Part shown: positions 21,771-24,711 of the stretch, piece by piece | How positions within the stretch are numbered: the stretch's first letter is position 1 | Layout of the letters: each line of letters begins with the position of its first letter | DNA from: Microbacterium sp. B19 | Lineage (GTDB): Bacteria > Actinomycetota > Actinomycetes > Actinomycetales > Microbacteriaceae | DNA length: 56,401 bases | Direction of reading: 5' to 3' | NCBI RefSeq assembly: GCF_000333395.1 | Contig: NZ_BADA01000145.1 | Span: 1 to 56,401 of the forward strand | Made by a program: the position numbers and the translations under genes | The notes under the pieces: generated by a model | What the model was told of the DNA's origin: nothing | Seen by the model: the letters and a program-made list of their open reading frames with translations, nothing else | Database searches by the model: none

Positions 21771-22082
21771 ATGCGGGGGCATGCAGCGGCAGTCGTGATC
21801 GTCGTCGCCGCGCTGATCCTGGCGATGGCCATCTTCTGCGCGGGCGGCTACTACTACGTCGAATACCAGGTGTGGGATGCCACGACCTCGGCGTACATCT
21901 ACCGGGCGAGACCGTACTCGGGTGCGGTGCTCGGCGTCTCGGTCGTGCTCAGCGCCGCGGTGCTCTACGCGGCGGCCGTGATGCTCATGCGCGCCGGTCG
22001 CGTCCACGGTTCGCCGGTGCTCGACGAGTGCCCCGCCCGCGCAGAGGGCTTCACGCCCAGCGGCGACACCACTCGTACATGA
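21771..22082 (+). CDS. Small two-helix membrane protein
   Basis: 103 residues with two membrane segments, AAAVVIVVAALILAMAIF (about 5-22) and VLGVSVVLSAAVLYAAAVML (about 53-72), separated by a Tyr-rich extracellular loop, and a soluble tail. Function unknown. TATCCT precedes the ATG by 6 nt. Its last 32 bp overlap the convergent TrmH gene. Confidence 0.75.
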   Translation: MRGHAAAVVIVVAALILAMAIFCAGGYYYVEYQVWDATTSAYIYRARPYSGAVLGVSVVLSAAVLYAAAVMLMRAGRVHGSPVLDECPARAEGFTPSGDTTRT

Positions 22083-22701
22083 CGACGGCGGCCGCCGAGG
22101 CCGCGTTGATCGACCGCGTCGAGCCGTACTGCGTGATCTCGATGACGCTCGTGGCCGCGGCGAGCGCTTCGGGCGAGAGTCCCGGCCCCTCCTGACCGAA
22201 GAGCAGCACGCACGCCTCGGGCACCTCCGCGCGGTCGACGGGGACGGAGCCGTCGACGTTGTCGATCGCCAGAACCGGGAGCCCGGCGTCGTTCGCCCAG
22301 GCGACGAACGCGGCGACGTCCTCGTGGTGCCGCACGTGCTGATACCGGTCGGTGACCATCGCGCCCCGACGGTTCCAGCGCCGCTTGCCGATGATGTGCA
22401 CCTCGGCCGCGAGGAACGCGTTCGCGCTCCGGACGATCGACCCGATGTTCAGGTCGTGCTGCCAGTTCTCGATCGCCACGTGGAACGGATGCCGCCGCGC
22501 ATCGAGGTCGGCGACGATGGCATCCATCGTCCAGTACCGGTACGTGTCGACGACGTTGCGGCGGTCGCCCTCGGCGAGCAGCTCGCGATCGTAGCGCGGG
22601 TCGTCCGGCCACGCGTCGGGTCCGCCGGGCCACGGCCCGACACCCGGGAGCACCACCGGCGTCGCGTCGTCCGGTACCGGGGTCGCGTCGCCGTGGGTCA
22701 T
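22051..22701 (-). CDS. TrmH/SpoU family RNA 2'-O-methyltransferase
   Basis: 216 residues with the SpoU signatures: NIGSIVRSANAF, LLFGQEGPGLSPE and ITQYGSTRSINAASAAAVVMYEW, which form the deep-knot SAM-binding site. Lacks an extra N-terminal substrate domain of the RlmB type. Methylates a ribose in tRNA or rRNA; target uncertain. TAGCCT is 6 nt before the ATG, leaderless by appearance. Confidence 0.92.
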   Translation of the reverse strand: MTHGDATPVPDDATPVVLPGVGPWPGGPDAWPDDPRYDRELLAEGDRRNVVDTYRYWTMDAIVADLDARRHPFHVAIENWQHDLNIGSIVRSANAFLAAEVHIIGKRRWNRRGAMVTDRYQHVRHHEDVAAFVAWANDAGLPVLAIDNVDGSVPVDRAEVPEACVLLFGQEGPGLSPEALAAATSVIEITQYGSTRSINAASAAAVVMYEWCRRWA

Positions 22702-22754: not shown

Positions 22755-22797
22755 TTTCGGTATCCCGAAATATCGCTAATCTTTCGGCATGCCGAAA
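22755..22797 (+). promoter_or_regulatory. Twin MntR operators over the mntH promoter and start codon
   Basis: Two related palindromes: TTTCGGTATCCCGAAA at 22755-22770 and the perfect TTTCGGCATGCCGAAA at 22782-22797, 27 bp apart centre to centre. Between them lies the -10 TAATCT (22777-22782). The second palindrome is centred on the ATG of mntH (22789-22791), so a bound repressor covers the start of a leaderless mRNA. The regulator is most likely the DtxR-family protein encoded right after mntH. Confidence 0.8.
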
Positions 22798-24066
22798 ACT
22801 CTGGATGCCGCGCCCCCGCGTCGCGCCACGCGCCGCGCGGCATGGCTCCTCGGGCCCGCGATGGTCGCAGGCGTGGCGTACCTCGACCCCGGAAACGTCG
22901 CGAGCAACATGACGGCCGGGGCCGTGTTCGGCTACCTGCTCGTGTGGGTGGTGGTGCTCGGCAACGTCATGGCGTGGCTGATCCAGTACCTGTCGGCAAA
23001 GCTCGGCATCGTCACGGGCGAGAGCCTCCCGCAGCTGCTCGGGCGTCGCATCCACCGCCCGTGGGTCCGTCGGGCGTACTGGCTGCAGGCCGAGCTCGTC
23101 GCGATGGCCACCGACGTCGCCGAGGTCATCGGCGGCGCCGTCGCGCTGAATCTGTTGTTCGGCATCCCGCTGCTGTGGGGCGGGGCGATCACGGGCGTGG
23201 TGTCGATCGCGCTGCTGCTGGTGCAGTCGCGGCGCGGCGCACGCGCGTTCGAGACCGTCGTCATCGGGCTGCTGGTGATCATCGCGGGGGGCTTCACCGC
23301 GGGCCTTTTTTTCGCGCCGCCCGATCCGGTCGGTGTCGTCGGCGGACTCGTCCCGCGGTTCGACGGGGCGACGTCGGTGCTGCTCGCGGCATCCATCCTG
23401 GGCGCGACGATCATGCCGCACGCGATCTACGCCCACTCGGCGCTGAGCCGCGACCGTTTCGCTCCCGCCGAGCCGACCGCCGCCGCCGATCTCGAAGCGG
23501 CTCGGGGCGTCTCGACGCCGCGCCTGCTGCGCGCGACCCGGTGGGACGTGACGATCGCCCTCGCGGTGGCCGGCACGGTGAACCTCGCGATCCTGCTGCT
23601 CGCCGCGGCCAACCTCACGGGCGTCGACGGCACCGACAGCCTCGAGGGCGCCTACGCGGCGCTCCGCGACGGGCTCGGATCGCTGGTCGCGACACTGTTC
23701 GCCGTCGGGCTGCTCGCGAGCGGCTTGGCCTCCACGTCCGTCGGCGCGTACGCCGGCGCCGAGATCATGCACGGGCTCCTGCGCATCCGCGTTCCGCTCC
23801 TCGCCCGCCGCCTGGTGACGCTGGTCCCCGCGCTCGCGATCCTCGGGCTGGGCATCGACCCGACGGTGGCCCTCGTCCTCAGCCAGGTCGTGCTGTCGTT
23901 CGGCATCCCGTTCGCGCTCATCCCGCTCGTGGTGCTGACCTCCCGGCGCGACCTCCTCGGCGCCCACCGCAACCGCCCCCTCACGACAGCCGCGGGCATC
24001 ATGGCCTCGGTGTTCCTCGTCGCGCTGAACGCCGTGCTCCTGTGGCTGGTGTTCAGCGGCGGTTAG
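22789..24066 (+). CDS. mntH: NRAMP family Mn2+/H+ symporter
   Basis: 425 residues with about eleven membrane segments. The metal-site motif in TM1 is DPGN (AYLDPGNVASNMTAG) and in TM6 MPHAIYAHS, both intact, as in manganese-selective NRAMP proteins. The ATG is the centre of a 16-bp palindromic operator and lies 6 nt after the -10 box, so translation is probably leaderless. Followed after 9 bp by the DtxR-family gene; together they form a manganese uptake and sensing pair. Confidence 0.95.
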   Translation: MPKTLDAAPPRRATRRAAWLLGPAMVAGVAYLDPGNVASNMTAGAVFGYLLVWVVVLGNVMAWLIQYLSAKLGIVTGESLPQLLGRRIHRPWVRRAYWLQAELVAMATDVAEVIGGAVALNLLFGIPLLWGGAITGVVSIALLLVQSRRGARAFETVVIGLLVIIAGGFTAGLFFAPPDPVGVVGGLVPRFDGATSVLLAASILGATIMPHAIYAHSALSRDRFAPAEPTAAADLEAARGVSTPRLLRATRWDVTIALAVAGTVNLAILLLAAANLTGVDGTDSLEGAYAALRDGLGSLVATLFAVGLLASGLASTSVGAYAGAEIMHGLLRIRVPLLARRLVTLVPALAILGLGIDPTVALVLSQVVLSFGIPFALIPLVVLTSRRDLLGAHRNRPLTTAAGIMASVFLVALNAVLLWLVFSGG

Positions 24067-24075
24067 GCTGAGCGC

Positions 24076-24711
24076 GTGGAATCGCCCGTGGCCGACGACT
24101 ATCTCAAGGCCATCTACCACCACACCGAGTGGCAGGACGACCCGATCACGCCCTCGCAGCTGGCCGGGGTGCTGAGCCTCGCCCCCTCGAGCGTCACCGA
24201 GATGGTGAAGAAGCTCGCGGCGCAGGGGCTCGTGAGCCACCGGCCGTACGGTCCCGTGTCACTGACGCCCGCGGGCGCGCGGCGCGCGGCGTCGGTGATC
24301 CGTCGACACCGCCTCATCGAGACGTGGCTCGTGCGCGAGTTCCACTACTCGTGGGACGAGGTGCACGACGAAGCCGAGGTCCTCGAGCACTCGCTCAGCG
24401 ACCGGCTGCTCGAGGGCATCGACGAGCGGCTCGGGCGGCCCCGGTTCGACCCGCACGGAGACGCGATCCCGGATGCCACCGGTGCGGTGCACCGCGAACC
24501 CTTCGTGCTGCTGCAGGACGCGGCATCCGGTCACTCGGGACGCGTGCTGCGCGTCAGCGATCGCGACCCCGAGCTGCTCCGGGCGCTCGTGGCGCGGCAG
24601 ATCGACGTCGGCCACGAGGTCGAGGTCGTGTCGCCCGACACCGTGCGGGCGGACGGCGTCGAGGTCGCGCTGCCCGAGGGCGCCGGCGCCTCGGTCTGGC
24701 TCACGCGCTGA
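24076..24711 (+). CDS. mntR: DtxR/MntR family metal-dependent repressor
   Basis: 211 residues. N-terminal winged helix (ADDYLKAIYHHTEWQDD, then LSLAPSSVTEMVKKLAAQGL as recognition helix), a dimerisation/metal domain with HRLIETWLVREFHYSWDEVHDEAEVLEHSLS, and a C-terminal SH3-like domain. The metal ligands D, E and H are present. It has its own -10, TAGGCT at 24064-24069, which includes the TAG stop codon of mntH, and a GTG start 6 nt later. Manganese is favoured over iron by the neighbour. Confidence 0.9.
   Translation: MESPVADDYLKAIYHHTEWQDDPITPSQLAGVLSLAPSSVTEMVKKLAAQGLVSHRPYGPVSLTPAGARRAASVIRRHRLIETWLVREFHYSWDEVHDEAEVLEHSLSDRLLEGIDERLGRPRFDPHGDAIPDATGAVHREPFVLLQDAASGHSGRVLRVSDRDPELLRALVARQIDVGHEVEVVSPDTVRADGVEVALPEGAGASVWLTR

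Follow-up and report, generated by a model that had tools for sequence, protein, structure and literature searches.

A predicted manganese operator centred on the start codon of mntH in Microbacterium, with an operator arm that doubles as codons 2 and 3

The mntH gene of Microbacterium sp. B19 begins at the centre of a perfect palindrome, and this arrangement is very likely a manganese-responsive MntR repression switch on a leaderless promoter, in which the start codon lies at the operator's centre and the right arm sets codons 2 and 3. We analysed a 56,401-nucleotide stretch of this genome (contig NZ_BADA01000145.1; hereafter the window) together with loci from related genomes. The boxes, their register with the -10 hexamer, their conservation, their effect on codons and their reuse on a second gene can all be read from the DNA itself. 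The features of the locus are as follows.

22051..22701, minus strand: divergent gene for a SpoU-type RNA methylase, which bounds the regulatory region and was not counted in the regulon
22755..22770, plus strand: box 1, an upstream operator-like inverted repeat, TTTCGG-TATC-CCGAAA (TTTCGGTATCCCGAAA), spanning -34 to -19, where the -35 region is expected
22777..22782, plus strand: predicted -10 hexamer TAATCT (TAnnnT), between the boxes, at -12 to -7 if A22789 is +1
22782..22797, plus strand: box 2, the predicted MntR operator, TTTCGG-CATG-CCGAAA (TTTCGGCATGCCGAAA), a perfect 16-bp palindrome at -7 to +9
22789..22791, plus strand: ATG start codon of mntH, also the predicted transcription start of a leaderless message, from the -10 register, the absence of a Shine-Dalgarno sequence and conservation
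22792..22797, plus strand: codons 2 and 3, CCG AAA (Pro-Lys), formed by the right arm of box 2
22789..24066, plus strand: mntH, Nramp-family manganese transporter of 425 aa (PF01566, 8.8e-109; NF001923, 447 bits, cutoff 430)
24076..24711, plus strand: mntR-like gene for a DtxR-family metalloregulator of 211 aa with DNA-binding, metal/dimerisation and FeoA domains, the predicted repressor

A first-pass annotation of this DNA had described a perfect 16-bp palindrome with the ATG at its centre, and the description was exact: box 2 is its own reverse complement and the mntH ATG occupies its middle. The same annotation had placed the -10 box between two operators, which is where we found it, the last T of TAATCT being also the first T of box 2. 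The arms of box 1 are likewise perfect, around an asymmetric TATC spacer, and the two boxes lie 27 bp apart from centre to centre. The promoter is thus flanked and overlapped by two exact inverted repeats, and these were kept in relatives. No Shine-Dalgarno-like run precedes the mntH ATG in the window. A consensus scan of the window returned no sigma-70-type promoter, a consensus -35 included; by analogy, the absence of a consensus -35 fits the weak -35 elements reported for C. diphtheriae in excerpts of PMC5784534.

The closest solved structure to the window MntH was 8e5s, a Divalent metal cation transporter MntH (330 bits), and the nearest named relative of the gene, 98% identical, came from Microbacterium sp. 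T32. The mntR-like gene begins 9 nt past the mntH stop and is probably co-transcribed with mntH. Its product matched PF01325, PF02742 and FeoA, all over their cutoffs; the top NCBIfam match was the MntR equivalog NF047407 at 150 bits, under its cutoff of 350, and the best PDB chain was 5zr4 (179 bits), which we take to be the MntR of M. tuberculosis.

Exact matches to TTTCGG-N4-CCGAAA occurred at only two places in assembly G000 (3.65 Mb, 576 contigs, 87% complete), and both were at mntH, namely box 1 and box 2. An order-1 Markov model of the window predicted 0.0008 exact sites for the window and 0.05 for 3.65 Mb. Allowing up to one mismatch gave six sites in G000, and a reversed control pattern gave none in that assembly. 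With up to two mismatches, the window held only the two boxes against 1.0 expected; as this count is near chance, what stands out is the exactness and the pairing of the boxes.

To follow the arrangement in relatives, we used 80 named mntH loci chosen by protein similarity alone. An in-frame RTG lay at the centre of box 2 in 75 of them, the exceptions being L044, L058, L066, L070 and L083; where both boxes were in frame (L057, L059, L081), the downstream box was taken as the start. One exception, L070 from Leucobacter, carried a different palindrome, GTTCGACATGACGAAC, which was also centred on ATG. The start codon was ATG in 65 of the start-centred loci and GTG in 10. One locus with the arrangement is L016, from M. 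testaceum StLB037. The upstream box was found in 69 of the 75, at a spacing of 27 bp (46 loci), 28 bp (19), 30 bp (2), 29 bp (1) or 32 bp (1), and was missing in six. The -10 register expected of a leaderless message recurred without exception, with TAnnnT at -12 to -7 in 68/75 and at -13 to -8 in 7/75. All 75 start-centred loci combined the two marks of leaderless genes, an RTG start and no Shine-Dalgarno-like motif. An in-frame stop within the promoter, present in 43 of the 75, bounds the start from the upstream side, and in nine start-centred loci the RTG of the box was the sole ATG, GTG or TTG between the stop and the conserved DPGN motif. An mntR-like match was present at 68 of the 80 loci, directly downstream on the same strand in 62, and was absent from the flank in the other 12. 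Since related loci are not independent, these counts overstate the number of events; the arguments least affected by kinship are an unrelated second gene and a contrast in synonymous codons.

The second gene came from exact TTTCGGCATGCCGAAA sites away from mntH, which led to a gene for an ABC substrate-binding lipoprotein of about 308 aa. The protein matched PF01297 ZnuA (9.5e-76), and its best NCBIfam model was the Mn/Fe EfaA type (195 bits, below the cutoff of 485); by similarity it would be of the manganese type. We took the 50 best-scoring loci of the family matches, leaving out weaker matches as likely paralogues, and counted 46 after setting aside four that could not be aligned (L341, L345, L350, L356). 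The box lay on the start codon in 21 of the 46, and 25 lacked it. In those 21 loci [T/C]AnnnT stood at -12 (20 loci) or -13 (one), and 19 of the 21 proteins opened with Met/Val-Pro-Lys, the remaining two having Pro-Asn and Thr-Asn. In G106 and G164, two genomes of the same genus for which the search found no mntH, the substrate-binding gene carried the box. In three genomes with both genes (G265, G359, G302), the flanks differed, by eye, outside the -10 and the box. The recurrence of the same 21-bp cassette on an unrelated substrate-binding gene indicates that it is not peculiar to one gene: two uptake genes that are unrelated to each other, chiefly in Microbacteriaceae, have the centre of the predicted operator, the predicted transcription start and the start codon at one place. 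A further substrate-binding gene with a start-centred box (L406 in G405, family f9 of the same order; MPKPW...) lies outside the family, and its box is there by either ancestry or transfer.

Within the genus, 43 of 59 genomes had at least one exact TTTCGG-N4-CCGAAA site (reversed control, one genome) and 16 had none; among the matches listed, which comprised 75 sites and 42 of these 43 genomes, 40 genomes had an NRTG-centred site. Across the family, TTTCGGNRTGCCGAAA was found in 88 of 398 genomes and 27 of 85 genera, against three genomes for the reversed control. We classed 66 loci from the NRTG-site matches in the family, 20 of them from an earlier fetch: 40 were mntH starts, 17 were substrate-binding starts and nine were other. 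Of these nine, one was an mntH whose N-terminal part is truncated at a contig end (L369, by eye), one lay at a contig end (L096), two were upstream ORFs (uORFs) just ahead of mntH (L399, L400) and five had no recognised target (L090, L378, L379, L391, L402). In genome G101, the 16-mer of L090 and L378 is part of an extended inverted repeat, which reads gtgtgagtaggtgcggg... in L378 and much the same in L090 and apparently has no relation to manganese genes.

The start-centred arrangement is not universal in the family. Among 84 mntH loci of other genera, being those fetched from 188 genomes with a match, 18 were start-centred, 30 had an operator elsewhere and 36 had none. In three loci of other genera (L266, L272, L273), mntH was preceded by GTTAGGCTGGGCTAAC-like repeats nearer the classical DtxR element, which suggests that these genera use a different operator type. 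As a candidate for the window site itself, the IdeR/DtxR iron operator, described in excerpts of PMC8464063 as a 19-bp TTAGG...CCTAA form bound by two dimers, does not match in sequence: the window has TTTCGG arms and two separate 16-mers 27 bp apart.

Beyond the family, no full box lay on the start in 78 mntH loci from other families of the order; at least seven (L133, L135, L149, L152, L168, L177, L178) had one box only, some 35 bp upstream, together with a leaderless-like -10, and one (L160) had a weak palindrome on the start, matching at 4 of 6 positions (ATG CCT AAC). The order-level set also held 11 loci of the own family, of which seven were start-centred (L108-L111, L113, L114, L116), two had a degenerate right arm (L117, L118) and one was cut by a contig end (L115). 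In the last of these (L112, G599), the box 2 repeat was intact with ACG in place of ATG, so that the operator was kept without the usual start codon.

At the class level, an exact NRTG-centred site occurred in 21 of 296 genomes, 10 of them within the own family and 11 beyond it; we looked at 10 of these 11, leaving out G833. In one (L418; G934, family f35, reverse strand), the GTG start of a DEAD-helicase-type gene lay at the centre of TTTCGGGGTGCCGAAA, with TAGCCT at -12 to -7, a stop 9 nt upstream, no other upstream start and no second box in the preceding 200 nt. This box reflects either chance or another regulator, and the string is therefore not strictly tied to metal genes. Elsewhere, the site lay within an FtsW/RodA-type reading frame (L412), or only short ORFs began at the box (L411, L419). 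Five loci of family f37 (L413-L417; G844, G914, G906, G882, G852) had TTTCGGCATGCCGAAA sites, some near contig ends and several with a gactcataatcgag-like flank, in which the box opened short ORFs only.

The identity of the regulator is where an alternative to the neighbouring MntR has most room, and we still consider it unlikely that the boxes serve another DtxR-family protein, such as an IdeR/DtxR-type iron regulator, or a zinc-type regulator. The consensus TTTMGG-N4-CCKAAA does resemble the DtxR/IdeR half-site TTAGG...CCTAA, genus g64 has pure TTTAGG-N4-CCTAAA, and the PF01297 family of the second target also includes zinc-binding proteins. However, the site stood on just two metal-uptake genes in 57 of the 66 classed family loci, and on mntH alone in G000, unlike a broad iron regulon, and an mntR-like gene adjoins mntH in 62 of the 80 named loci. 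We also asked if the operator arms (TTTCGG or TTTAGG) co-vary with the recognition helix of MntR. They did not do so consistently: the helix was nearly invariant (APSSVTEM...), with EMA for EMV in four TTTAGG-arm loci and not in three others (L199 and like), a result that speaks neither for nor against MntR as the binder.

The palindrome might instead form an RNA hairpin on a longer upstream transcript, holding the start codon in its loop for translational control. RNA from position 22755 indeed folded better than its shuffles (z -3.3, 0/200 as good), with the two boxes pairing together, but a transcript beginning at the predicted +1 carries just one half of box 2, and its fold was not unusual (z -0.89). 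Furthermore, six of the 75 loci pair TTTCGG with CCTAAA, which would create a C-U mismatch in RNA and yet is a plausible half-site variant for a protein, and the -10 at its fixed distance sets the start at the box centre, with box 1 in the -35 region. We regard such a hairpin as very improbable.

We give as little credence to a leadered message from an upstream start, with the overlap of box and start codon being incidental. It draws on other genera of the family, in which the same box follows a -10 overlapping its first T in the same register and is succeeded by a Shine-Dalgarno sequence and a later start (L220, L224, L236). At the named loci, it is at odds with the lack of any Shine-Dalgarno-like motif and with the fixed -10 register. 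In L220, L224 and L236 the box would again be centred on +1, ahead of a short leader, which suggests that the primary design in the family has +1 at the box centre and that overlap with the start codon is its consequence in leaderless genes. The main constraint seems to be the centring of the operator on +1, and the start codon would fall inside the operator because the message is leaderless.

Comparing the two boxes separated the needs of the operator from those of the gene. In the 69 loci with a box 1, its spacer was nearly random, positions 2 and 3 carrying just 0.02 and 0.01 bit, so the operator seems indifferent to spacer sequence, a freedom that the start codon exploits: an NRTG spacer was found in 75/75 for box 2, its T and G being fixed, vs 7/69 for box 1. 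The right arm behaved differently from the spacer. Codons 2 and 3 of the 75 start-centred named loci were CCGAAA in 69 and CCTAAA in six, so the opening Met-Pro-Lys, whose conservation in relatives with the box on the start had been put forward as a check, was kept as Met/Val-Pro-Lys in all 75. Codon 3 was AAA in 75/75, whereas AAA made up 16 of the 173 lysine codons downstream of codon 3 in these genes (2/9 within codons 4-25); in the 21 start-centred substrate-binding genes, lysine elsewhere was encoded by 43 AAG and 5 AAA, with only the 5' part available for some loci.

In the family, the Pro-Lys opening was absent wherever the start carried no box (0 of 66 loci, 0/135 candidate starts), and in other families of the order it followed one of 220 candidate starts (78 loci), a TTG. 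Start-centred loci of other genera in the family had Pro-Lys in 16 of 18; L199 and L203, with the arm CCTCAA, had Pro-Gln. With decay of box 2 the codons had drifted, to ATG TCC AAG in L044 and GTG GCG AAG in L066. The first-pass annotation had held that the motif must serve both the repressor and the first codons, and this is borne out for codons 2 and 3, which are set by the right arm; the start codon itself costs the operator little, because it sits in the unconstrained 4-bp spacer. That Pro-Lys is instead kept at residues 2 and 3 for the protein, for membrane insertion or N-end stability, with the palindrome secondary, is scarcely credible: a positive residue near the N terminus would suit a membrane protein and the signal peptide of a lipoprotein alike, but the synonymous choice is fixed too, family homologues with no box on the start lack the residues, the residues and the box recur together in an unrelated protein, and in L399/L400 and L226 the box opens short out-of-frame uORFs and not MntH.

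The pairing of a DtxR-family metalloregulator with an Nramp target is shared with the MntR-mntH systems of Bacillus subtilis, M. tuberculosis and Deinococcus (DR2539), as far as these are covered by the sources seen in excerpt. By our own reading, the B. subtilis mntH oligonucleotide given in an excerpt of PMC11416365 is TTTGCC-TTAA-GGAAAC, that is, two 6-bp arms and a 4-bp spacer. What differs from the known systems in those excerpts is that the operator here has at its centre the RTG of a gene predicted to be leaderless; among the matches listed from the open-licence literature, seen as excerpts, we found no description of an MntR operator so placed, nor did the titles listed include transcript data for the genus. 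A metalloregulator site over a leaderless core promoter has a counterpart in C. glutamicum Zur, whose site overlaps the core promoters of the RACE-mapped leaderless genes cg0042 and cg2911; the excerpts of that report mention neither centring on the start codon nor dictated codons (PMC2823685). According to excerpts, 20% of C. diphtheriae genes are leaderless (PMC5784534), 22% of transcription start sites in M. tuberculosis begin with RTG, and leaderless initiation at RTG is established in mycobacteria, with downstream sequence free (PMC4633059). Mycobacterial and corynebacterial leaderless genes, as described there, share with the mntH case an RTG at +1, a fixed -10 and no Shine-Dalgarno sequence. 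Whereas the excerpted PMC4633059 reports no sequence preference after RTG, here the operator arm constrains +4 to +9. In Deinococcus, the RDRM of DdrO overlaps the promoter of leaderless Deide_18350, running from the -35 with the transcription start at +1 (PMC5552922, excerpt). That 17-bp element, which belongs to another repressor family, lies upstream of the start codon and is uncentred in the part of the report seen, unlike the start-centred box described here.

From the gene neighbourhood and the target list, we infer MntR as the regulator, with manganese as its signal. Manganese-loaded MntR, made from the gene beside mntH, would bind the two dyads, box 1 over the -35 and box 2 on +1. When manganese is plentiful, bound MntR would block RNA polymerase and repress the gene; when it is scarce, MntR would come off and transcription would start from the A (or G) of the RTG, putting the 5' end of the window message at the A of its ATG. 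The ribosome would then initiate straight at the 5' RTG of this leaderless mRNA. Since repressor binding seems to depend on the two 6-bp arms but not on the 4-bp spacer, the spacer can be free for N-RTG and hold the start codon, and the right arm, as codons 2 and 3, would fix the start of the protein as Met/Val-Pro-Lys.

More tentatively, and as a possibility rather than an expectation, the 21-bp TAnnnTTTCGGNRTGCCGAAA may be a self-contained cassette that evolution has placed on unrelated genes and that, when out of frame, gives a coupled leaderless mini-ORF. The cassette would contain the -10, the operator, the transcription start, the start codon and the first three codons. Out of frame, as in genera g75 and g69, the TGA of the mini-ORF overlaps the mntH GTG and could add a second step, translational coupling. 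Two loci on the reverse strand (L399 and L400; G235 and G275) have a box-centred ATG that opens a 24-codon ORF, MPKTWTLVHDASGIAPMSRHTGEP, whose TGA overlaps the mntH GTG start (GTGA), and this may be a leaderless uORF coupled to mntH. In another genus (L226, G185), a box-centred ATG opens a 9-codon ORF, MPKNPRIAL, with a GTGA overlap with the likely mntH start.

Together, these data present a clean case, recurring within one bacterial family, in which a regulatory DNA site would dictate the N terminus of a protein, with two unrelated proteins as evidence of convergence. They also suggest why leaderless promoters may allow a repressor at +1, there being no leader between operator and coding region. 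A simple sequence rule follows for Microbacteriaceae: a spacer of N-RTG, with the last T of the -10 within the operator, would mark true starts and likely MntR targets. If the cassette reading is true, the N termini of two metal importers would be a by-product of the DNA specificity of a repressor.
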